From IMG/VR virus record IMGVR_UViG_3300028610_001630, positions 1 to 33,415 of that record: a DNA stretch of 33,415 nucleotides, one strand, 5' to 3'. Numbering within the stretch: position 1 is the stretch's first letter; the number at the start of each line of letters is the position of its first letter. The position numbers were made by a program, and so were the translations under genes. Below the pieces are notes generated by a model, which was given only the letters and a program-made list of their open reading frames with translations, was not told where the DNA came from and did no database searches. Below are positions 4,397-31,007 of the stretch, piece by piece. The DNA comes from a virus.

Positions 4397-4576
4397 ATGG
4401 CAGAACAAATACAGAGGATTAAGAAATGCCGCCACGCCCTCACTTGTCCATTATTATCTGTAAAGGAAAAAGGAAAAGTAATCGGTGTGAAGATAAAGGA
4501 AATTAAAACACAACACGGGATTATTAATGTCATTGAAAATCTAAAATTAAAAGAAAATGAATGGGGAATAGTCTGA
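4397..4576 (+). CDS. Small hypothetical protein, 59 aa
   Basis: ATG 4397 lies one base after the preceding stop, and GAGAAGGGG provides a ribosome site. The stop overlaps the next start as TGATG. The protein starts with a basic cysteine-containing segment (RIKKCRHALTCPLL) and continues with beta-like K/I-rich sequence (GKVIGVKIKEIKTQ). No family recognised. Its position inside a tightly coupled trio makes it very likely real. Confidence 0.6.
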   Translation: MAEQIQRIKKCRHALTCPLLSVKEKGKVIGVKIKEIKTQHGIINVIENLKLKENEWGIV

Positions 4577-5139
4577 TGGCGACCAGGGGTAGAAAGAATA
4601 AGGACTGGCACTTACTAAAAGCTGACTTCATAACGAAGGGACTTAGTTCTGAGCAGTTAAGCGCAAGATATGGGATTACACCTAATTGGATTAGGATAAT
4701 CGCAAGAAAGGAAGGGTGGCAAAAAGAGAGAGAAGAATATCAGTCAACAACTGTGAAGAAAAAAATTGAGGATGCGAGAAAGGTTTATGTTCGTGATAAA
4801 TTACTTGAAGCCGCTAAGTTTGCAGGATTAAAGGAGAAATTAGAGGAGTTAATCGACAAGATTATATCGGATAATGGAAAGGGTAATCCAAAAGATGTTG
4901 CAGACTTATCCCGTGCCATCTGTCAGCTTGAAGAAAGGGAGGCGGTGCTATGTGGAGAAGCCTCTCAGGTCACTGAGGGGCGATTCTCCGCCAATATACA
5001 GCAGGTTATAGCGGAGCTGGGGGGATTGTCAAAGGAGGAGCTTCAGAAGAAGTTCCAAGAGGAGAAGAAGAGGCTGTCCGGGGCTGGAAGTGGTATGGCA
5101 AGCCTGCCTCCAGCGCAAGAGAAGAAAGAGGGAGAATAG
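4576..5139 (+). CDS. Probable terminase small subunit, 187 aa
   Basis: I use ATG 4576, which overlaps the previous stop. A longer reading from 4561 has no advantage. Residues 1-50 form a helix-turn-helix typical of DNA-recognition subunits (LLKADFITKGLSSEQLSARYG, then TPNWIRIIARKEGWQ). A long helical region with LEELIDKIISDNGKG and LEEREAVLCG follows, then a charged tail. The W-x-x-x-R-E-x-Y pattern after the HTH and the overall length fit small terminases that bind packaging sites. The large terminase genes follow about 2 kb later, after three small genes and a gap. I cannot exclude another HTH regulator. Confidence 0.6.
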   Translation: MATRGRKNKDWHLLKADFITKGLSSEQLSARYGITPNWIRIIARKEGWQKEREEYQSTTVKKKIEDARKVYVRDKLLEAAKFAGLKEKLEELIDKIISDNGKGNPKDVADLSRAICQLEEREAVLCGEASQVTEGRFSANIQQVIAELGGLSKEELQKKFQEEKKRLSGAGSGMASLPPAQEKKEGE

Positions 5140-5875: not shown

Positions 5876-6228
5876 TTACAAAACAGATAGGAGAATTTTT
5901 TAAGAAGTTTTTACTTTCTCATGAGATGTCCTTCATAGAACCCGAAGGTTATTTTATGGGGAGAGATAGACACTACATAGATTTTCATTGTCGGGATTGT
6001 GGAGGGGAGTTTAGGATTTACGAAGAGTTTCCTCAGCACCAAGCTCAGCCTTGTATCTATTGCCTTTCGTATAAGCTGACCCTTGATGCCTACGGTATAG
6101 AGTGCCCGGGTTCCCTTCTTCAGCCCCGGATGGTCACGGTCATTGGAAAAGAGTCATTGGGCTTAGAGAATCCGTTCTGGTTTGAGGGGTGGGACTGGGA
6201 TCTTAGAGTAGAAAGGGTGGGTTTGTGA
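5872..6228 (+). CDS. Zinc-ribbon-like hypothetical protein, 118 aa
   Basis: It begins at GTG 5872, overlapping the previous stop, with GGAGG just upstream. Two CxxC pairs (CRDC and CIYC) about 20 residues apart frame a beta-like segment, as in a zinc ribbon. The C-terminal half is rich in Trp/Phe and Gly (NPFWFEGWDWDLR). No function is assigned. It lies between the Cys-rich gene and a glycosyltransferase, and its stop overlaps the start of that gene. Confidence 0.6.
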   Translation: MITKQIGEFFKKFLLSHEMSFIEPEGYFMGRDRHYIDFHCRDCGGEFRIYEEFPQHQAQPCIYCLSYKLTLDAYGIECPGSLLQPRMVTVIGKESLGLENPFWFEGWDWDLRVERVGL

Positions 6229-7157
6229 AAAAGTCAAAAACGAGCCTCCTCTATATCGACAAGTTTTCTAAAATCAATTCCAATTATTATTGGCTGAAGT
6301 ATTTCAACCGCATTGCCCCTGTGCATAACCTTGATGTTGATACCGAGTTAAATAAAAAGGCGTTTTTTAATTCGATGCCGGTTAGCCACATCCATTTAGG
6401 CGGTAGTGTGAAGCACGATAAGGTTCCTCTTGATTGGTTAAAAACTGCAAAGAAGAAATTCAATCCTACCATCACCGTCTTCTATGGCGATGCGAAACCC
6501 TCTGATTATCACCGGACATTGACAAGGGTGGCTGACAAGATTTATTTTTCCAATAAGAGCTATGTGAAAGAGCTTAACGATGAATTGGGCATTAAGCTCT
6601 GTTCCTACATGCCGTGCCCCACCGACCCGGAAGTTTTCAAGCCTTACCCATTAAAGAAAAAATATGATGTGATATTCATCGGGAATAATAGTCCTATTCT
6701 TGGCCCCGAGAGAAAGGAATTGGTGCAGGGGCTATTACTTAACGGCGATTTCTCCTTCAAGATATTTGGCCGTGGCTGGGCGAACAGGACTAAGCCTGTT
6801 TATGGTGAGAAGTTTGCCAAGACCTGCTCTTCGGCAAAGATAGCAATTGGTATTCTTGACACTAAGTGGCGGCACTTGCAAGCTTATTTCAGCAACAGGT
6901 TGGTTTTTACGATGTCCTCCGGCTGTTTTTACATAGCCCCCTATGTCCCGGGCTTATCGCAGATATTTTTAAAACACCGTCATCTTGTCTGGTATAAATC
7001 TTTTGAAGAGTTACTGGACTTGATTGAATATTATTTAAGGGTGGATAAGGCGAGGGAGAAGATAGCGAAGTCGGGAATGGAAGTTGTAACCAGAAGGTTT
7101 AACTTCAGGAAAAGTGTGAAAAAGATATTGGGTATTGAGAGGAAGAAGCGGAAATAA
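6225..7157 (+). CDS. Glycosyltransferase, CgeB/GT-B-like, 310 aa
   Basis: The protein starts at GTG 6225 and has the two-lobed look of a GT-B enzyme. The C-terminal half contains DVIFIGNNSPILGPERKELV, then FKIFGRGWA, then a segment with SGCFYIAPYVPGL, followed by an ELLDLIEYYL helix and a terminal KIAKSG...TRRFNF helix. This order is typical of CgeB-like or GT4-like transferases, where the S-G-x-F/P loop contacts the sugar nucleotide. It would transfer a sugar from an activated donor to an unknown acceptor, perhaps the capsid, a tail protein, DNA or host glycan. It lies between small genes and the terminase, one of four sugar genes among the structural genes. Confidence 0.7.
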   Translation: MKKSKTSLLYIDKFSKINSNYYWLKYFNRIAPVHNLDVDTELNKKAFFNSMPVSHIHLGGSVKHDKVPLDWLKTAKKKFNPTITVFYGDAKPSDYHRTLTRVADKIYFSNKSYVKELNDELGIKLCSYMPCPTDPEVFKPYPLKKKYDVIFIGNNSPILGPERKELVQGLLLNGDFSFKIFGRGWANRTKPVYGEKFAKTCSSAKIAIGILDTKWRHLQAYFSNRLVFTMSSGCFYIAPYVPGLSQIFLKHRHLVWYKSFEELLDLIEYYLRVDKAREKIAKSGMEVVTRRFNFRKSVKKILGIERKKRK

Positions 7158-7158
7158 A

Positions 7159-7899
7159 ATGACCGAGCAAGAAAAATTATTAGAGCAAACCCAGGAGATA
7201 ACGCTCTTAAATAATTCTCCCTCTCTCCAGGGGATTGTTTACGAGCAATGCCGCCGGGATGTTAAATACTGGCTCTGGGGCGATACCCCGGAGAACCATG
7301 CCTTCAGCGGCGCCGATAGGGTATTGGAACACACGGGATTGATTTTCGTTAATACCCTTGACGAACACGATAAGAATAACCCCATCAAACCGTTTCCCCG
7401 CCGTGAATATTTCCTACCCCTAATCGACCTCTGGGAAAAAGAGCAAATTATTTTATTGGTCAAGTCCGCGAAGATGATGATCACCTGGCTATTCGTTGCC
7501 CTCTATCTTCACGACACATTGTTTAATTTAGGACGGCATAATTTCTTCCAATCGCAGAAGGAGGAGGCGGCGAATTTTCTTGTTGACCGGGCTAAGTTTA
7601 TTTATTCTCATCAGCCCCACTTTTTAAAACAGCATAAAATCAGGGATGTATTCGGCAAGTTGGAATTTGAGGCAATCAGTTCAAAGATTTGGGGAGTTCC
7701 CCAGGGGCCGGATCAAATCCGGGAATACACCCCTTCTGGCATACTCAGCGATGAGATGGCTTTTCAGGTAGAGGCGGAAGCTTCCTATACCGCCTCCCGG
7801 CCTAATATAGCGGGGGGAGGTAGGTTTACCGGGATTACCAGACCGAACCGGGGCTTCTTTCACGAGATGGTAAAAGACGATTACAATCCGAGGCCATAA
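7159..7899 (+). CDS. Terminase large subunit, ATPase half (split gene), 246 aa
   Basis: The ATG at 7159 is preceded by GAGGAAGAAGCGG. The sequence matches the ATPase domain of large terminases. It has a Walker A-like KSAKMMIT at residues 102-109, Walker B GILSDEM at 194-200 with the catalytic DE pair, and a motif III-like FTGIT at about 223-227. It stops at 7899 after NRGFFHEMVKDDYNPRP, where intact terminases continue into the nuclease domain. That continuation is present as a separate ORF at 9061-9969. The ATPase would power DNA packaging through the portal. The glycine normally seen in the P-loop is replaced by methionine. Confidence 0.85.
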   Translation: MTEQEKLLEQTQEITLLNNSPSLQGIVYEQCRRDVKYWLWGDTPENHAFSGADRVLEHTGLIFVNTLDEHDKNNPIKPFPRREYFLPLIDLWEKEQIILLVKSAKMMITWLFVALYLHDTLFNLGRHNFFQSQKEEAANFLVDRAKFIYSHQPHFLKQHKIRDVFGKLEFEAISSKIWGVPQGPDQIREYTPSGILSDEMAFQVEAEASYTASRPNIAGGGRFTGITRPNRGFFHEMVKDDYNPRP

Positions 7900-7900
7900 G

Positions 7901-8884
7901 ATGAATATTTTAGTTACCGGCGGAGCTGGTTTTATCGGGTCACATATCGTTGATGCCTTAATCGAAAAGGGGCATAGCGTTTCGGTGATTGACGATTTAA
8001 GTTTAGGTGAGGAAAAGAATATCAATCCCTCGGCAAAGTTCTGGAAAGGAAATATTAACGACCTGAGAATTTTAGAGGCACTTTTTCAAACAGAGCAACC
8101 GGAAGTGGTTTTTCATTTAGCGGCCTTTGCCAGGGAGGGCGCTTCTCAGTTTATTCCCATCAAAGTATCTCAAACTAATTACGAAGGATATATCCGGGTG
8201 CTGACAACCGCAATTAAAAACAAAGTTAAAAAAATTATTCTCTTTTCTTCGATGGCTGTTTATGGGGAGCAACCCATACCTTTTTTTGAAACAGCGGAAA
8301 CGAAACCGGTTGATATTTACGGGGTGAATAAGGTAGCTATGGAAAAGGCCACGCAGATATTAGCGGAGGTTCACGGTTTCGATTGGGTAATAATAAGACC
8401 ACACAATGTCTTTGGTGAAAGACAATCTCTAAGGGACCCATACAGGAATGTCATGGGTATCTTCATGAACAGGATAATGAGAAGAGAGCCTATCTATGTT
8501 TACGGAGACGGGGAGCAGGCAAGGGCTTATAGCTATATTGACAATAGCATACCTTGTTACTTGAAGGCATTGGAAACAGAAAAAGAAATATTTAATATCG
8601 GAGGATTGGAAGTTATAACGGTTAATGAATTGGTGAGACTCATATTAAGAGAATTCGACCTGAAAGAATACCCCATTATTTATTTAAGAGACCGGCCTTG
8701 TGAAGTAAAACATGCCTGGTGCTCGGCTCAGAAAAGTATCTTTGTTTTAACCTACAGAGATGCAGTATCCATCGAAGAGGGGATCCACGAGATGGCAGAA
8801 TGGGCGAAACAAGAAGGCCCGCAAGAATGGATTAAAGAGAAGTTGGAAATTTACAGTGAGATGACGCCAGTAACCTGGAGATAG
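7901..8884 (+). CDS. NAD-dependent nucleotide-sugar epimerase/dehydratase (extended SDR), 327 aa
   Basis: The N-terminus has the Rossmann signature GGAGFIG at residues 7-13, and the D-D pair at 31-32 fits NAD binding. The SSMAVYG segment (116-122) supplies the Ser/Thr of the active site, followed by Y140-GVN-K144, the YxxxK motif. The RPHNVFGERQ segment and the later YVYGDGEQARAYSYIDN are typical of UDP-glucose 4-epimerase-like enzymes. It would interconvert or dehydrate an activated sugar for the nearby glycosyltransferases. It starts one base after the terminase ATPase stop and appears to be a cargo gene inserted into the terminase gene. The exact substrate cannot be told from sequence. Confidence 0.9.
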   Translation: MNILVTGGAGFIGSHIVDALIEKGHSVSVIDDLSLGEEKNINPSAKFWKGNINDLRILEALFQTEQPEVVFHLAAFAREGASQFIPIKVSQTNYEGYIRVLTTAIKNKVKKIILFSSMAVYGEQPIPFFETAETKPVDIYGVNKVAMEKATQILAEVHGFDWVIIRPHNVFGERQSLRDPYRNVMGIFMNRIMRREPIYVYGDGEQARAYSYIDNSIPCYLKALETEKEIFNIGGLEVITVNELVRLILREFDLKEYPIIYLRDRPCEVKHAWCSAQKSIFVLTYRDAVSIEEGIHEMAEWAKQEGPQEWIKEKLEIYSEMTPVTWR

Positions 8885-8890
8885 TAAGTG

Positions 8891-9064
8891 ATGAGGAAGG
8901 AAGAATTATTTTTTAGGAAAATGAGCATATTGAAAATGCTGGAGAAGGGTTTGTGTAATGAGGCAATTTGTGAACTTATGGGAATATCAAGAGGAGCCCT
9001 TTTAAGTGTTATTTTCAGGTTGAGAAAAGAAGGGCTGATTGCTCCTGTTGCTAAGAAAAAATGA
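8891..9064 (+). CDS. Small helix-turn-helix protein inside the terminase split, 57 aa
   Basis: ATG 8891 follows GGAG, and the stop overlaps the start of the terminase nuclease ORF as ATGA. The product holds a winged or simple helix-turn-helix: ILKMLEKGLCNEAICELMG followed by ISRGALLSVIFRLRKEGLI. This is like the sigma-region-4 or Trp-repressor type of small phage proteins. It may regulate transcription, or it may be the remains of a homing or insertion element that brought the epimerase. Its overlap with the nuclease ORF suggests it drives translation of that ORF by reinitiation. Confidence 0.6.
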   Translation: MRKEELFFRKMSILKMLEKGLCNEAICELMGISRGALLSVIFRLRKEGLIAPVAKKK

Positions 9065-9969
9065 GAATCCAGAAGGGTCTTGACATTGCCGAGGCGGCAG
9101 ATGGCTATCAAGTTGTTAGCCTCCACTACTCGGCAGACCCGGAGAAGGATACCCCGGAATGGTTAGCCCAGGCCCTGAAGGGATACAAGGGCGGGCAGAG
9201 CAATCCTTATTTTCGTAAGGAATATGAGCTGGACTTTGAGGCGATCAGCGGGCAGCCGATTTATGCCGACCTCTGGAGAGATGAAATACATGCCATCAAT
9301 CCTTTCCGGATCCCCGACGAACTAAATAAATACCGGATAATCGACCCCGGGTTCAGGAACCCCCTTTGCTGTCTATGGGTTGCAGTTAATTACGATGACC
9401 CGCTGGGTTTTTTAAAACAATTCCCCCCGGGGGCTCACTTTGTTTACCGGGAGCATTATGTCAAAGGGAAATTGATTCCGTGGCACCGGGAACAAATAAA
9501 AACCTTGACAGCGAAAGAGGTTATTAAATACACTTTAATTGACCCCCGGGCCGCGGATAAAACCATTAAGGCGGAAGAATCTGTATTAGAAGACTTCCGG
9601 GACAACTCGGAAAACGATGGAATTAAAAATCTCCGGGTTGCTAATAACACCGTCTGGGACGGCATCCTGAGGGAGCGAGCCCTTCTCAACTGGGAGAAAA
9701 ACGAAGCCGGGGTATTAACACGAAAGCCTAAACTTTATGTTTTCAGAACATGCCCTAACTTAATTCGGGAATATAAATTTTACTGCTGGGAAGATTATCG
9801 TTCCGAAGCAACGAGAGACCGAAGGGACCCGAAGGAAAGTCCGAGAAAGAAAGATGATCACGGAATGGATTGCCGGAGATATTTTGCGAATGAGAAAGTC
9901 GGACCTACCCGGAGGAAGCCCATTGTCATGCCCAAGTTTCGTGACATAAGAAGGGAAAGGGTTTATTGA
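9061..9969 (+). CDS. Terminase large subunit, nuclease half (split gene), 302 aa
   Basis: This ORF continues the terminase where the ATPase half stops. It begins with YQVVSLHYSADPEKDTPEW, which normally follows the ATPase core. The RNase H-like nuclease residues are visible: D95 in YRIIDPGF, D161 in TLIDPRA, and the acidic pair D265/D266 plus D270 in KKDDHGMD. It would cut concatemeric DNA during packaging. ATG 9061 overlaps the stop of the HTH gene and lacks its own strong ribosome site, so coupled translation is likely. Its stop overlaps the portal start. All expected acidic residues are kept, so the split protein is probably functional. Confidence 0.85.
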   Translation: MRIQKGLDIAEAADGYQVVSLHYSADPEKDTPEWLAQALKGYKGGQSNPYFRKEYELDFEAISGQPIYADLWRDEIHAINPFRIPDELNKYRIIDPGFRNPLCCLWVAVNYDDPLGFLKQFPPGAHFVYREHYVKGKLIPWHREQIKTLTAKEVIKYTLIDPRAADKTIKAEESVLEDFRDNSENDGIKNLRVANNTVWDGILRERALLNWEKNEAGVLTRKPKLYVFRTCPNLIREYKFYCWEDYRSEATRDRRDPKESPRKKDDHGMDCRRYFANEKVGPTRRKPIVMPKFRDIRRERVY

Positions 9970-12005
9970 TGGCAGCCGAAGAAGAGAAAGTCACAATCGG
10001 CGAAGACGAAAAGGAAGACCTGGTAAATAGCGTTGTCCGGGATTTTGAGGACGCACAGAGAAGGAGGGAGCCTTACGAAGAGATATGGGACCGCTGCTAC
10101 AAACTCTATAATTCTTATGTCAAGGATTTACCGGAAGACGATTGGCATTCAAATATTTTCGTTCCGAAATGTTTCTCCCTGGTCGAAACCGAGTTGCCCC
10201 GGATAATCTTAGCAACGATAGCCATTCGGGAATTCTTTGGCACCCTGCCGGTAAACCCGCACGAGACCGAGCAGGTTAAACTCGTTAAGCAACTAATCAC
10301 ATACCAGGTAAACGATGAGATAAAGATATTTCTGAAATGGGTGGATTACCTGAAGCAACTGATAATTTATGGCAATTCCCCGGGTAAGGTTTATTGGTCG
10401 AGAAAGTGGGAAAAGAAAAAGTTCAGGTCGTTTAAAACTCCCGAGTCCTCGTGGTTCTCATTCTGGGGTAAGCCCCAATCAAAAGAAATAATTGAAGAAA
10501 AAGACATAAAAATCTATGATGGCCCCCAGTTTGACCCCTTAGACCTCTATGATTTCTTCCCCGCCCTGCCCAGTGTTTCTACCCTCGAAGAACAGCCCTA
10601 CCTGATTCATCGGACATGGCGTGATGTGAATTACCTCAAGGAGATTCAGAAGGATGCCGGCTACGACCCGGAGGTAATCGCCGCCCTGGGAGAAAAGGGA
10701 AAGGAAGGGGAGGGTGGCATTACGGAGGACTCCAGTCAGAAGAGAATGTCGGAGATCGGAATCCATACAAGCGATTTCGGCTCGGGACGCTTGTGGATTC
10801 TTGAAAGAACTAAGAACGGGAAACTCACCACGATTGAATATAATAACAAAGCTTTACTGAGGAATGTTGATTATCCGTATGAATACATAAAAAACTCATT
10901 CATATTTACCAAGCACACCCCGGTGCCCGGGGAGTTTTACGGTAAGGGAATTATTGAGCCGAACGCAAAGCTTCAATTCGCATTGAACGATATTGTTAAT
11001 TACAGATTGGACAATGTTTATGTCCTGTTAAATAAGGTTTTCAAGGGGTTAAAGGGTGCCGATATTGACTGGGAACAAATTGTTGTGGGTCCCAACAAGA
11101 TAATGCTTGTTGATGCGATGGAAAACTTGCAGGAATTCGTAATGTCTGATGTTACCTCTTCGTCTTATCACGAGCAGGGCGGGTTCAGTGAGATGATGCA
11201 GGAGACCTCCGGTATCTGGCCCTATTCCCAGGGGCGTGCCCCGCAAAGGAAAGAAACCGCTTCCGGGATAATGTCTCTCCAGCAGGCGGCGGAGATCAGG
11301 TTTCAACTTATCGCCCTTATCTTCCAGCATTCGGGTATCGTGGAACTGGTGGAGAAAATTCACGGCCTGAACAGGCAATTTCTACCCGAGGAAAAGAGGA
11401 TAAGGATTTTAGGCCCCGAGGGATTAAAGTTTCTGAATGTGCCGTTTAACGATGTGAACATTGACTGCGACTTCATCGCCGTGGGTCATCCGACTATGGG
11501 GAACAAGCAGTTGATGTTGCAACAAATGCTGATGATTGCAGAATATCTGGCAAATCGCCCGGGAGGGGTTAATCAGTATGAAATTGACAGGATGGTGCTT
11601 GAGGCGGCCGATGTGGAGAACATTGACGAGATTTTAGAGAAACCGCCCACCGACCGGATAAGTCCCCAGGACGAAAATAAGGTGATGGCTATGGGGGAGC
11701 TTGTCAATGTGAATTATTACGATAAACACGGCGAGCACGCACCTATTCACATGAGCCTCTTACGGTCTCCCGAATTGAATCCCAGTTTCCGAATGATAGT
11801 TGAAAGCCATGTCAGGGAACATCAGAGTTATATAGATTTTATGATGCAGCAAAGGACACAGCAGATGAGCCAGGCCGGGGCGCAAATGCCGGGGTCTGCC
11901 GATGAGGAACGGGCATTTCTCCGGCCCACCGGACCCGCGGAGGGGCAGAAACCGGCACCGCCGGAAGAGGTAGTCAGAAGGATGATGCAGGGAGGGAAAA
12001 TTTAA
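9969..12005 (+). CDS. Portal protein, 678 aa
   Basis: ATG 9969 overlaps the previous stop as TGATG and has AAGGG upstream. The order after terminase, the length near 680 residues and the sequence all fit a large podovirus portal. The N-terminus has RREPYEEIWDRCYKLYNSYV and WHSNIFVPKCFSLVETELPRI. The middle has FDPLDLYDFFPALP, and the helical segment that would face the tunnel includes KETASGIMSLQQAAEIRFQL. The C-terminus is rich in Gln, Met and Pro. Portals form the dodecameric ring through which DNA is packed and ejected. It belongs to the broad P22/SU10-like head-to-tail connector group, by impression. Confidence 0.8.
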   Translation: MAAEEEKVTIGEDEKEDLVNSVVRDFEDAQRRREPYEEIWDRCYKLYNSYVKDLPEDDWHSNIFVPKCFSLVETELPRIILATIAIREFFGTLPVNPHETEQVKLVKQLITYQVNDEIKIFLKWVDYLKQLIIYGNSPGKVYWSRKWEKKKFRSFKTPESSWFSFWGKPQSKEIIEEKDIKIYDGPQFDPLDLYDFFPALPSVSTLEEQPYLIHRTWRDVNYLKEIQKDAGYDPEVIAALGEKGKEGEGGITEDSSQKRMSEIGIHTSDFGSGRLWILERTKNGKLTTIEYNNKALLRNVDYPYEYIKNSFIFTKHTPVPGEFYGKGIIEPNAKLQFALNDIVNYRLDNVYVLLNKVFKGLKGADIDWEQIVVGPNKIMLVDAMENLQEFVMSDVTSSSYHEQGGFSEMMQETSGIWPYSQGRAPQRKETASGIMSLQQAAEIRFQLIALIFQHSGIVELVEKIHGLNRQFLPEEKRIRILGPEGLKFLNVPFNDVNIDCDFIAVGHPTMGNKQLMLQQMLMIAEYLANRPGGVNQYEIDRMVLEAADVENIDEILEKPPTDRISPQDENKVMAMGELVNVNYYDKHGEHAPIHMSLLRSPELNPSFRMIVESHVREHQSYIDFMMQQRTQQMSQAGAQMPGSADEERAFLRPTGPAEGQKPAPPEEVVRRMMQGGKI

Positions 12006-13261: not shown

Positions 13262-14413
13262 ATGGCAATGATTGATGGAGTTAGAGATACAAACACCATA
13301 ATTGCGGCAACCCGCAAGTTGGATACGGCGGACAGGATTGCACTTCTGGAACCCGATGCGGCTCCTCTAACCGTTATTCTCAAGATGGCCCGGAAGCGTA
13401 AGACCACCGACCCCAAGTTCAGGTGGTTTGAGGATGTGCTGGGTCCCCGGTGGGATACGGTAAATTACTCAACGGGATATACAACTTCCGAGACCAGTAT
13501 TGTCGTTGACAACGGCGCCTACTTCAAGGCCAACGACCTGGTCAAGGTAACGACCACCGCGGAGGTTGTTCTGGTAACCGCTGTTAGCACCAACACCCTA
13601 ACGGTAACCCGGGCATTCGGGGAGACTGCGGCCGGCGCAGTTGCCGATGGAGGTAAGCTACTCATTCTCGGTAATCTCAGCGAGGAAGGTGCCGATGCCC
13701 CGGCGATCAAGACCACCCAGAAGGTAGAGGTTTATAACTTTACCACAATCGTCAGGACACCCCTGGGATTGACCGGCACGGAGGCGGCTACCGACCTCTA
13801 CGGAGAGAAAGACCTGCCTTACCAACGCCGGAAAGCGGCCATCGAGCATATGAAGGATATTGAAAACCGGTTCCTCTTCAGCGAGCGAAAAGAGGATACC
13901 AGCGGGACGCATCCGAAGCGTTCCACTCGTGGATTAATCAAGTGGATTACCACGAATGTTACCGATGCCGGGAATACCCTGACCGAGGCGGAGTTCAATA
14001 CCTTCTTAGAGAGCGTCTTCCGGTATGGTTCCAAAAAGAAGATGCTTATCGCCTGCTCGAAGATAGTCTCCGCACTGGACTCCTGGGGCCGGGCTGCGGT
14101 TCGGGTTTTATCGAAGGACCAGACCTACGGGATTTCCGTTAAGCAGTATCTAACCTCACACGGCACGCTCAATGTGACAAAGCACGACCTTCTGGAGGAA
14201 TTCTACAACGAGACCGGTTTTGCCCTTGAGCCTGCTTCCATGTGGTATAGGCCACTGCAGGGTGCTAAGAACAGGGATACCCATCTTCGGAAAAACATTC
14301 AGGACAACAAGAACGACAGCGAGCAGGACGAATGGATGACTGAGGTGGGGCTGCATCTCGAGCATCAGAAGAAGCACGGGCGACTGCATAATGTCGACCA
14401 GTATTCAGCGTGA
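13262..14413 (+). CDS. Major capsid protein, SU10-type (HK97 fold), 383 aa
   Basis: ATG 13262 follows GGGAGGAATT. The protein resembles the SU10 major capsid family (formerly DUF5309) in overall pattern. The N-terminal segment has DGVRDTNTIIAATRKLDTAD and EPDAAPLTVILKMARKRKT, and a beta-rich insertion of about 80 residues follows (VDNGAYFKANDLVKV, then TLTVTRAFGE). The core has YNFTTIVRTPLGLTGTE and IENRFLFSERKED, and the C-terminal part has TKHDLLEEFYNETGFALEP. Length is in the normal range. It would form the icosahedral shell. It follows the scaffold by 13 bases, and a strong terminator after it separates the capsid gene from the neck and sugar genes. Confidence 0.85.
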   Translation: MAMIDGVRDTNTIIAATRKLDTADRIALLEPDAAPLTVILKMARKRKTTDPKFRWFEDVLGPRWDTVNYSTGYTTSETSIVVDNGAYFKANDLVKVTTTAEVVLVTAVSTNTLTVTRAFGETAAGAVADGGKLLILGNLSEEGADAPAIKTTQKVEVYNFTTIVRTPLGLTGTEAATDLYGEKDLPYQRRKAAIEHMKDIENRFLFSERKEDTSGTHPKRSTRGLIKWITTNVTDAGNTLTEAEFNTFLESVFRYGSKKKMLIACSKIVSALDSWGRAAVRVLSKDQTYGISVKQYLTSHGTLNVTKHDLLEEFYNETGFALEPASMWYRPLQGAKNRDTHLRKNIQDNKNDSEQDEWMTEVGLHLEHQKKHGRLHNVDQYSA

Positions 14414-14480: not shown

Positions 14481-14885
14481 ATGCGATTTGATAGTCCTTA
14501 TGATGGATTGCGGTTAGTCAAGAAGGCAAGGGCGAAGACTGTGGTAGAAGGTCAAGTCATCTTATCTCCCGGGGAAGATGCGCAGTTCAAGAACGGGGTT
14601 TACGAGACGGACGACAAGGAGATGATTAAGTGGCTCCTGGGCCACGACGGATACAAGAGGGATTTCTTTGCCGATATTCCTCAGTCGGAGCTTCAGAAGG
14701 AGGAAGCTGGAAAGAAGGGGGGAAAGAAGGGGAAGGAATCTGTTGAGGTGAAGGAAGAGAACCCGGAAGGAGTTGAGGTTAGTGAGTCAGAAGAAGAAAG
14801 TACAAAAGCACCTAAAGCTGGTAAGGGCAGGAGAAAGGGAAAGAGAAAGAAAGCCAAAAGTGCTTCTGGCAGTTCCGGTAGCTGA
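14481..14885 (+). CDS. Post-capsid hypothetical protein with charged tail, 134 aa
   Basis: I chose ATG 14481, which has GGAGG at five to six bases. An in-frame ATG at 14469 lies upstream of that ribosome site. Residues 1-70 form a small alpha/beta domain (VEGQVILSPGEDAQFKNGVY, then DDKEMIKWLLGHDGYKRDFF). The remaining 65 residues are a low-complexity Lys/Glu/Gly/Ser tail. Proteins of this kind often follow SU10-type capsid genes, but I know no proven role. A head decoration or completion protein is possible. The basic tail could bind DNA or a charged surface. Its 3' end overlaps the next glycosyltransferase. Confidence 0.55.
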   Translation: MRFDSPYDGLRLVKKARAKTVVEGQVILSPGEDAQFKNGVYETDDKEMIKWLLGHDGYKRDFFADIPQSELQKEEAGKKGGKKGKESVEVKEENPEGVEVSESEEESTKAPKAGKGRRKGKRKKAKSASGSSGS

Positions 14886-15657
14886 CAAGGTTGAGCATAG
14901 AACTCATACATGCCTTACTAACATATTTCATTCTCTGATTCTTTCCGGTTATGAGTATGCCTACCACAATAAGCAGTCAGCCAATCTACACGCATCCCGG
15001 AATAGGGCCGTCCAGGTAGCCTACGAAAACGGCTGCTCTCATGTCCTGTTTATCGACTCGGACATGACCTTCCCGGACGGGGTGCAGGGGGGCATGGAGA
15101 ATGTAGTTGAGCAGCTACTGAGGCATGACCGGGATATTATCGGGGCATTGGCAGTCCGAAAAAGGGCACCTCACTTTCCCAATATAGCCAATTTCGATGA
15201 GGAAAATCAGTGGTTTGTAAACATTCTCGACTGGCCCGAGGATGCCCTTATCGAAGTGGATGCAATCGGCACTTCAACCCTTCTGATTAAGCTCTCCGTT
15301 TTTGACCGGATCTCCGAGCACTTCTTTTCCGACATTCCCTTCAAAGACCATAACTGGTTTGGATTTGTCCAGTTACGCACCAACAACTCCATTAAAGAGC
15401 TCGGTATGGACTATTCTTTCTGTTACCGGGCAATGAAGGCCGGACTAAAGATATTCTGCGATACCTCCATCCCGATTGGACATATTGGCAGTTATACTTT
15501 CACCGTAAACGATTTTTCGGTCTATAAGGAAGAGGCGTTTGAACACAATACCGCAAAGGTCGAATTGACAAAGGCAAGGGTTATTAAGGAGAAGGAAATT
15601 GAGCCTGATACAAAAACCGCAATTCCCGCTGATAATAATCAAGAAGCCGGAAAATAG
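14860..15657 (+). CDS. GT-A-type glycosyltransferase, about 265 aa
   Basis: The fold is that of family-2-like transferases. It has a first beta strand (KVLLAVPVADKVE), a helix with NLHASRNRAVQVAYENG, then HVLFIDSDMTFPDG with the metal/nucleotide-binding DSD, then DRDIIGALAVRKRAP and VDAIGTSTLLIKLSVF. A later GMDYSFCYRAMKAG helix and HIGSYTF end the core. The start is uncertain. The frame is open from 14773, but GTG 14860 gives only a 26-base overlap with the preceding gene and removes a highly basic lead. It would transfer a sugar, likely to a virion or cell-surface target, and pairs with the second transferase at 15808. Confidence 0.75.
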   Translation: MLLAVPVADKVEHRTHTCLTNIFHSLILSGYEYAYHNKQSANLHASRNRAVQVAYENGCSHVLFIDSDMTFPDGVQGGMENVVEQLLRHDRDIIGALAVRKRAPHFPNIANFDEENQWFVNILDWPEDALIEVDAIGTSTLLIKLSVFDRISEHFFSDIPFKDHNWFGFVQLRTNNSIKELGMDYSFCYRAMKAGLKIFCDTSIPIGHIGSYTFTVNDFSVYKEEAFEHNTAKVELTKARVIKEKEIEPDTKTAIPADNNQEAGK

Positions 15658-15807: not shown

Positions 15808-16437
15808 ATGAAGGACAGAGTAAACATACTGATGCTTACCTATAACCAGCCTCAACTGGAGGCGGATTGCCTGAGCAGTATTGTTAAGCAGACGGAGCAT
15901 CCGTATTCAATCACTGTGCACGATAACCGGGGAGGGAATACCAACCTGGCTGAGATATGGAATAAGCTCATCCGGGAATCGGTTCATAGCCATTTACTGT
16001 TCCTCAATTCCGATACGGTAGTGGAGAAGGGCTGGTTATCAAAACTGGCCGGTTCATTCGATGAGATACATCGCCTGGGAGCCATCGGCCCGGTAACCAA
16101 CCGCTGCGGATACCCATATCAAATCAGGGAAATTGCGCAGCCGGAGCCAAATTTAACCAAGGCGGAAATATCAGGCTTCTGCTTTCTCACAAAAAAAGAG
16201 GTATTTGAGAAGGTGGGCTATTTTGACGAAGAGTTCGACTTTTACGGTCAGGAGTCCGAATGGTTTCTCCGGGTTAAGCAGGCTGGTTACTGGGTAGGGT
16301 TCCGGCAAGATGTCTTCGTCTCTCACTTAGGTGGGGCCTCGATAAAGAAAAGGGAGGGATTTGATTTAGCCGGGGCACGGAAGAGGGGCGGGGAACTCTA
16401 CCGGGAGAAGAGATACGAGGCTGAGCAAGGAGCTTAA
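15808..16437 (+). CDS. Family-2 glycosyltransferase, 209 aa
   Basis: ATG 15808 follows AGAGGTGCT. The sequence begins with a classic GT2 start (VNILMLTYNQPQLEADCLSS), then SITVHDNRGG, then LLFLNSDTVVEKGWL with the D-x-D-like NSD motif. FCFLTKKEVFEKVGYFDEEF and a catalytic-region-like EWFLRVKQAG follow. This is the rhamnosyl/galactosyl-type layout at short length. It needs an activated sugar, which the epimerase at 7901 might help supply. Its stop overlaps the neck protein start, so it is co-expressed with virion genes rather than with a polysaccharide operon. Confidence 0.85.
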   Translation: MKDRVNILMLTYNQPQLEADCLSSIVKQTEHPYSITVHDNRGGNTNLAEIWNKLIRESVHSHLLFLNSDTVVEKGWLSKLAGSFDEIHRLGAIGPVTNRCGYPYQIREIAQPEPNLTKAEISGFCFLTKKEVFEKVGYFDEEFDFYGQESEWFLRVKQAGYWVGFRQDVFVSHLGGASIKKREGFDLAGARKRGGELYREKRYEAEQGA

Positions 16438-29550: not shown

Positions 29551-30306
29551 CTAAAACAATACCCCCTGAGCTAAACGGTTGTTAGCTATCTTGATATACT
29601 CAGGGTTGATATCGAAACCTATATAATTTCGTTGTAAATTCCGGGCTGCGACTGCTGTTGTCCCGGAACCCATAAACGGATCCAGAACAATATCGTCTGG
29701 CTTAGTAGAGAAAACAACGGCCCTCGAGACTAAAGCTATTGGCATTTGAGTAGGGTGGGCTTTTCTATTGGTCCCGGGCACGATGATCGCTTCCTTATGA
29801 TGAACGGATCCTGCAAATATAAAAGTTATATCGTCCCAATAATCATGTAATTGACCTCGAGGGCCCTTATCGTATTCAGTCCATCTCCATTTATTTTTCT
29901 TAATTTGAGCATAAGTATTAAATAAATAATCTTCCGTTTTGGCATATACAAGGATAGGCTGATAGCTATTCCAAAAACTCCTCTTACCGTGAGCGGCGGA
30001 TACATTCCGCCAAACAACTAAATTTATAAACACTCCCCGGGACCCGAGCATGGGGAATAATATCTGTAAGTGGCGAGGTATTGTCATTAAATAAATCGTT
30101 CCGGTATCCTTGAGCTTTCTAAAACAAAGGTCAATCCATTGTTCACACCATTCGTAATAATCCTGGCGCCTATCATTGGTAAGGCCATAATCCTTTCCAA
30201 CATTAAACGGTGGATCCGCAAAAATGAGGTCAATCGAACTATCAGAAATCGACTCGAGGCCCTCGAGTGCGTCAATACAATGAATCTTATTTATCCAGTC
30301 TCTCAA
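29551..30306 (-). CDS. DNA adenine/cytosine-N4 methyltransferase, beta-class, 251 aa
   Basis: Motif IV DPPF is at residues 31-34, ahead of the AdoMet-binding DPFMGSGTT at 209-217. This is the order of beta-class N6-adenine or N4-cytosine enzymes. HPTQMP (184-189) and a C-terminal FDINPEYIKIA strand complete the fold. It probably methylates phage DNA to avoid host restriction, or regulates genes. No restriction enzyme partner is adjacent except the HNH nuclease about 270 bases upstream. The start is a TTG at 30306 with GAGGAGGAG close by, overlapping the previous gene. DPPF leaves both target bases possible. Confidence 0.9.
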   Translation of the reverse strand: MRDWINKIHCIDALEGLESISDSSIDLIFADPPFNVGKDYGLTNDRRQDYYEWCEQWIDLCFRKLKDTGTIYLMTIPRHLQILFPMLGSRGVFINLVVWRNVSAAHGKRSFWNSYQPILVYAKTEDYLFNTYAQIKKNKWRWTEYDKGPRGQLHDYWDDITFIFAGSVHHKEAIIVPGTNRKAHPTQMPIALVSRAVVFSTKPDDIVLDPFMGSGTTAVAARNLQRNYIGFDINPEYIKIANNRLAQGVLF

Positions 30307-30575: not shown

Positions 30576-31007
30576 TTAAGCGATTTTCCTCCACCAATCA
30601 TCAGGGGATAACCAAAGAAGCCCCACATGATTAATCCCTTTTAAAAACGCCAAGAATCTAACCACCATACCGTATTTCCAAGCTTCTATTTTATGGCATT
30701 CAGAACAAAGTAACAGCACATTCTCAGGATTAAATAATTCCCCGCCATCTTCTAAAGGGATTTTGTGGTGAACCTGAAAATCCTCTCTATTATATTTATT
30801 TTTATTCTTGCTTTCCTTGCCACAAACTTCGCATTTCATACCACGAGATTCATAAATCCAAATACCAAAATCAACAGCTCTGTTACGGTTGTAATATTCT
30901 TGCCGGTGCTCAGCATTACAATATTTACCCCGCCCTATCTTAACCCCACACCAGAAACAAAATCCAGTCGGTTTGTCGTCACCCAATTTCTTATATCTTT
31001 CCATCAT
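30576..31007 (-). CDS. HNH endonuclease, 143 aa
   Basis: The C-terminal half has the HNH pattern. A zinc pair CEVCGKE (59-62) is followed by VHHKIPLEDGG with the His pair at 80-81, then NPENVLLLCSECH with Asn96 and the second Cys pair 101/104. The N-terminal 35 residues carry another CxxC (CFWC) and a C/H pair. Such enzymes nick or cut DNA. In phages they act as homing nucleases or packaging partners of terminase. This one is far from the terminase genes and lies near the methyltransferase, so homing or defence roles are equally possible. ATG 31007 overlaps the previous stop. Confidence 0.85.
   Translation of the reverse strand: MMERYKKLGDDKPTGFCFWCGVKIGRGKYCNAEHRQEYYNRNRAVDFGIWIYESRGMKCEVCGKESKNKNKYNREDFQVHHKIPLEDGGELFNPENVLLLCSECHKIEAWKYGMVVRFLAFLKGINHVGLLWLSPDDWWRKIA

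Follow-up and report, generated by a model that had tools for sequence, protein, structure and literature searches.

The viral record IMGVR_UViG_3300028610_001630 of IMG/VR, examined over 33,415 nucleotides (the window), encodes a large terminase (TerL) in two separate open reading frames (ORFs), designated chain N and chain C, between which lie a complete ORF for an NAD-dependent nucleotide-sugar epimerase and a small gene for a winged helix-turn-helix (HTH) protein (Table 1). The ORF coordinates reported in a first-pass annotation, made from the sequence alone, are reproduced here, as is the tight packing of the genes: a single base separates the chain N stop from the epimerase start, and the start of chain C overlaps the HTH stop in an ATGA. 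An in-frame GTG occurs at 8888, just ahead of the HTH start at 8891. Portal and small terminase (TerS) genes lie near the two terminase ORFs.

Chain N is recognized by profile as a terminase ATPase (PHROG 5989, E 9e-5). Its AlphaFold model (predicted local distance difference test, pLDDT, 89.6) finds the ATPase of T4 gp17 as best match in PDB, with E 1e-12 and TM 0.72. The first-pass annotation had described both Walker motifs as intact, which holds for Walker B, where D198 and E199 are invariant in the family alignment, and holds only in part for Walker A. There the window reads KSAKMMITW where the family has KSRQ(M/L)xxTW; K102, S103, T109 and W110 are retained, K102 and W110 being invariant in the family and S103 nearly so, and RQ is replaced by AK. 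Chain N thus has the gp17-like fold and the Walker motifs of the P-loop ATPase of tailed-phage TerL, with a deviant Walker A. The coupling-motif strand (modelled as E222-227) and the FF after it form the last well-conserved segment of the chain, and the C-terminus lies 16 residues beyond this segment.

Chain C is identified as a terminase nuclease by PF17289 (E 7e-5) and PHROG 5653 (E 4e-11), and its predicted fold matches the D6E terminase and the P22 nuclease. The full complement of nuclease acidic residues, asserted in the first pass, is borne out: D95, D161 and D270 are invariant in the family alignment, as expected of an RNase H-like nuclease. The nearest structures differ for the two chains, T4 gp17 for chain N and the D6E and P22 nucleases for chain C, and the same mixed affinity is seen in intact relatives.

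Table 1. Features of the window, with the terminase chains and their motifs first
Feature	Position	Strand	Evidence or remarks
TerL chain N (ATPase subdomain I, engine)	7159..7899	+	ATG to TAA, 246 aa; PHROG 5989
Walker A-type motif, K102 to W110	7462..7488	+	family alignment
Walker B GILSDE (D198, E199)	7738..7755	+	family alignment
Coupling-motif strand RFTGITRPN	7822..7848	+	strand in model
TerL chain C (rest of ATPase domain and RNase H-like nuclease)	9061..9969	+	ATG to TGA, 302 aa
Chain C N-terminal part, HYSADPxKDxxEW and KEYELDF	9061..9240	+	alignments; corresponds to ATPase domain end in intact terminases
Nuclease acidic residues D95 (9343-9345), D161 (9541-9543), D270 (9868-9870)	9343..9870	+	family alignment
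NAD-dependent nucleotide-sugar epimerase, junction cargo	7901..8884	+	PF01370 E 6e-49; PHROG 540 E 4e-65
Winged HTH protein, 57 aa, junction cargo	8891..9064	+	PF13412 E 9e-5
SU10-type portal protein	9966..12005	+	PF23899 E 1.6e-23; 4-nt overlap with chain C end
Putative small terminase (TerS)	4561..5139	+	PHROG 51 / 1206 terminase small subunit, E 6.5e-6 / 1.8e-4
Major capsid protein	13262-14413		PF17236
Glycosyltransferase-like gene	6225-7157		
Glycosyltransferase-like gene	14773-15657		
Glycosyltransferase-like gene	15808-16437		
DNA methylase	29551-30306	-	PF01555
HNH endonuclease	30576-31007	-	PF01844

The break does not fall at the boundary between ATPase and nuclease. A 22-member chain N profile aligned to the T4 gp17 chain covers residues 101-299 and ends there. 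Near its start chain C has two motifs, HYSADPxKDxxEW and KEYELDF, the first with its conserved HY about 21 residues into the chain; in three single-ORF relatives (L067, L074, L123) both motifs follow the coupling motif and precede the nuclease. Because chain N ends just past the coupling motif and chain C opens with these pre-nuclease motifs, the break follows the coupling-motif strand and lies within the ATPase domain, near the junction named NsubI/NsubII in the T4 literature (PMC3012670). Speaking of an ATPase half and a nuclease half, as the first pass did, is therefore only approximately correct, since chain C carries the remainder of the ATPase domain. When the two chains are joined and aligned to the intact terminase of L067, no conserved block is absent, in agreement with the earlier impression that no terminase sequence had been lost. 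The two domains, which a single-polypeptide TerL carries in one gene, are here in separate ORFs, a two-chain variant.

Single-sequence searches made the split look unique: chain N retrieved no relatives, and chain C only distant single-ORF terminases. A degenerate DNA pattern built on a conserved chain N motif then led to two IMG/VR contigs, L045 and L046, with the same break and no epimerase; an alignment-based scan found 28 viral loci and 2 in metagenome-assembled genomes, and a 22-sequence profile found 80 loci. For counting, relatives were sought by profile scans of IMG/VR, with near-copies removed. Among 73 non-redundant loci seeded with chain N, 62 are split in order and one in reverse, giving the same breakpoint in 63 of 73; five are intact (L067, L069, L070, L074, L123) and five show chain N only. 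Some of these last contigs stop soon after chain N, and L121, L133 and L147 have no chain C in about 6 kb downstream. A separate scan seeded with chain C, whose loci overlap the first set, gave 52 split loci out of 65 (49 in order, three reversed), five intact, and eight with no chain N detected, mostly at contig starts. The search of related contigs that the first-pass annotation had recommended thus found the same split many times over. In the reversed loci (L072, L073, L217, L227, L230) chain C precedes chain N; both ORFs lie on one strand and are separated by about 1.3 to 1.8 kb. The break is old and common to most of the group; a quick tree requires six changes between split and intact states, two of them forced by well-supported branches. 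In L076 (11-1580), seventeen tandem tRNA genes stand just upstream of the split terminase.

No cultured relative with two chains was found in INPHARED. The best matches there to chain N or chain C fall below 33% identity, and all those inspected (TW1, Vibrio 1.052.A, MW202803, API480, ctEqG8, Shocker, C48C1, immuto and Leptospira LE1) have an undivided gene. The terminase of Leptospira LE1 seems short as annotated, but its ORF is 479 aa and intact.

What lies between the two chains varies widely. Across split loci the distance between chain N stop and chain C start varies between -20 bp and about 4 kb; chain C starts were picked by profile position and may be a few codons off. Insert-free relatives, with ORFs that overlap by 4-20 bp or abut, include L046 (13 bp of overlap), L075, L054, L048, L051 and others, and L045 holds a 30-aa membrane-peptide ORF. 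Elsewhere the junction carries a zinc-finger family (L057, L061, L064, L110, L111), an HNH endonuclease (L050, L083), a LAGLIDADG match (L103), an FkbM methyltransferase (L140) or the same with a glycosyltransferase (L061); L066 has a DNA cytosine methylase directly after chain N. Most junctions lack an endonuclease, and no homing endonuclease is present at the junction in the window. Even close pairs differ in insert: L109 and L094, with chain N 83% identical, have spacings of 8 and 839 bp, and L102 and L103, 77% identical, of 2 and 2237 bp.

These observations bear directly on the supposition of the first pass that the epimerase and HTH genes had split the terminase, in its simplest form an insertion into an intact gene in this phage alone. 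The GC content at third codon positions is 0.43 for the epimerase and 0.37 for the HTH gene, below the 0.53-0.58 of chain N, chain C and portal, and this fits later acquisition of the two genes. As a cause of the split, however, insertion is refuted by relatives that are broken at the same point with no insert or with quite different ones, and we give it hardly any chance. The same break with no insert or unrelated inserts means that the split predates the epimerase, which entered, or replaced something in, a pre-existing junction. Endonucleases and moron genes are gained and lost at this junction, which behaves as a cargo site. In L050 (2100-2175), the HNH ORF ends in a stretch resembling the junction of chain N tail and chain C start in insert-free L046 at 21 of 23 bp, a match in its last codons suggesting that the endonuclease, too, entered a junction already split.

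The epimerase itself is an ordinary member of the phage nucleotide-sugar epimerases of PHROG 540, distinguished by its place between two terminase cistrons; its nearest solved structure is the UDP-glucose 4-epimerase 4zrm (E 7e-56). Direct repeats sought around the epimerase and HTH insert amounted to 7-bp chance matches only, and a pattern scan of IMG/VR returned no close epimerase relative. In L020 (932-1930) an epimerase relative, 32% identical, sits immediately upstream of a terminase that is intact and distantly related.

Rejoining of the chains by a group I or II intron, a trans-splicing element or a split intein has real precedents. In ICP1 and Jug phages the terL coding sequence likewise occupies separate ORFs with endonuclease genes nearby, and the transcripts are spliced to give one protein (PMC10448857, PMC12363816). 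Here, in contrast, the ORFs can overlap, their order can be reversed, and an intron restoring one continuous gene, which the first-pass annotation had considered, was not found by Rfam in the window or in 12 related loci. Overlaps of 4-20 bp and gaps of 1-2 bp are too small for an intron, the inserts are ordinary ORFs of differing content, and in the reversed loci cis-splicing cannot rejoin the chains. As for inteins, the large terminase of cyanophage Mic1 is interrupted by one (PMC7156551), which splices at the protein level, and real inteins occur inside some chain C genes of the present group. At the window junction, however, Pfam detects no intein in either chain, and the 16 residues after the coupling motif plus about 21 before the HY motif leave no room for split intein halves. 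Rejoining by splicing is, on this evidence, very unlikely.

The inteins of the group lie within the chain C nuclease domain, in L096 (1588-3615; PF14890 and HNH) and L122 (3274-5208; PF14890). The chain C ORFs of L090 and L104, at 655 and 662 aa, are of comparable length and may carry inteins too; L090 has a second segment matching the chain C profile. In L040 (Delftia phage PhiW-14 gp17), the annotated gp17 opens with an apparent C-terminal intein part before the ATPase.

Fusion during translation, with programmed frameshifting or stop readthrough joining the chains at short-overlap loci and long-junction loci being derived or defective, is suggested by the junctions that overlap by 4-20 bp. 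Frame offsets and stop codons nevertheless differ among loci. Chain N ends in TAA 35 times, TGA 19 times and TAG nine times; with all three in use no single stop is read through, and stop-codon recoding was rejected on this ground. Spacings above 60 bp are common, moreover, and both halves remain under purifying selection in such pairs, so that we regard fusion by recoding as extremely unlikely. The ratio of non-synonymous to synonymous change (dN/dS) is 0.09-0.25 in both halves, over nine related pairs and where dS is not saturated; non-synonymous changes are far fewer than synonymous ones, and both chains are therefore under purifying selection. Chain N and chain C distances correlate at r=0.88, a value reached by 0 of 1000 permutations, and at r=0.90 for spacings above 300 bp, a correlation that reflects co-inheritance as well as possible co-evolution. 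A decaying pseudogene or an assembly artefact might be suspected where the window is a single metagenomic contig, and yet dozens of independent contigs show the same arrangement, related pairs have dN/dS well below 1 and catalytic residues are intact; the chance of either is close to negligible.

Very probably, then, this phage and its relatives have a large terminase that is naturally a two-chain enzyme. Several points weigh against this conclusion. The chain C model is of moderate confidence only (pLDDT 75.7). All split members are metagenomic, none cultured. Chain C starts show no enrichment of Shine-Dalgarno sequences (13 of 63; random ATGs, 17%). In long-junction loci, a splicing element of undescribed type could escape Rfam. 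Lastly, artificial splitting of gp17 at its hinge, which is not the position seen here, preserved ATPase and nuclease activities and abolished translocation (PMC3012670), so that two-chain function is not automatic.

We infer two-chain assembly and a function in DNA packaging, and likewise the origin of the split. Both chains would be translated as neighbouring cistrons, in this phage with the sugar epimerase and small HTH gene as junction cargo, and would most likely assemble non-covalently at the portal as the packaging motor. Chain N is the P-loop ATPase subdomain I, ending just past the coupling-motif strand; chain C brings the remaining ATPase domain together with the RNase H-like nuclease, and would complete the ATPase fold and pass ATP hydrolysis on to the DNA-moving nuclease domain. 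That the natural break lies elsewhere than the gp17 hinge suggests, as a hypothesis, that function depends on the rest of the ATPase domain staying with the nuclease chain. The two-chain motor that the first pass had thought possible is supported by these comparisons and probably holds across a large group. It is likely, in our estimation, that in this large group of uncultured tailed phages the packaging motor is an obligate heteromer, with the ATPase engine on one polypeptide and the transmission plus nuclease on another, broken inside the ATPase domain at the coupling-motif junction, and that the gene junction is a long-lived docking site for cargo.

Among the closest known systems, T4 gp17 shares the subdomain I fold of chain N, and the joined chains keep a gp17-like order of motifs, but gp17 is one chain, whereas the window is broken after the coupling-motif strand. 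Aeh1 nrdA and the T4 topoisomerase gene show a contiguous gene becoming two polypeptides that have to reassemble (PMC2988022), split by homing endonucleases, of which HNH and LAGLIDADG types occur in some junctions here; the present case differs in enzyme, in being group-wide, in having mostly endonuclease-free junctions and in its diverse cargo. No published unspliced two-chain TerL was found in open-access full texts, subscription papers lying outside the scope of that search.

Elsewhere in the window, three glycosyltransferase-like genes occur in addition to the epimerase, with matches to PF13524, to Anp1 (weak, below its cutoff) and to PF00535; together with the epimerase they suggest a glycan-modification set. 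A major capsid protein gene, of SU10 type like the portal, follows the portal gene, and a DNA methylase and an HNH endonuclease are encoded on the minus strand near the right end.

TerL usually serves as a single-gene marker, presumed universal among tailed phages, and the motor is assumed to need covalently linked ATPase and nuclease domains to move DNA. A stable two-chain TerL, if true, would test how force is transferred from the ATPase engine to the DNA-moving domain, and is informative on this point because the natural cut lies at the coupling motif, not at the hinge. In many uncultured phages, marker-gene pipelines may recover just one of the two terminase halves. The group would also offer a case of a split essential gene that persists while its junction serves as a cargo site.
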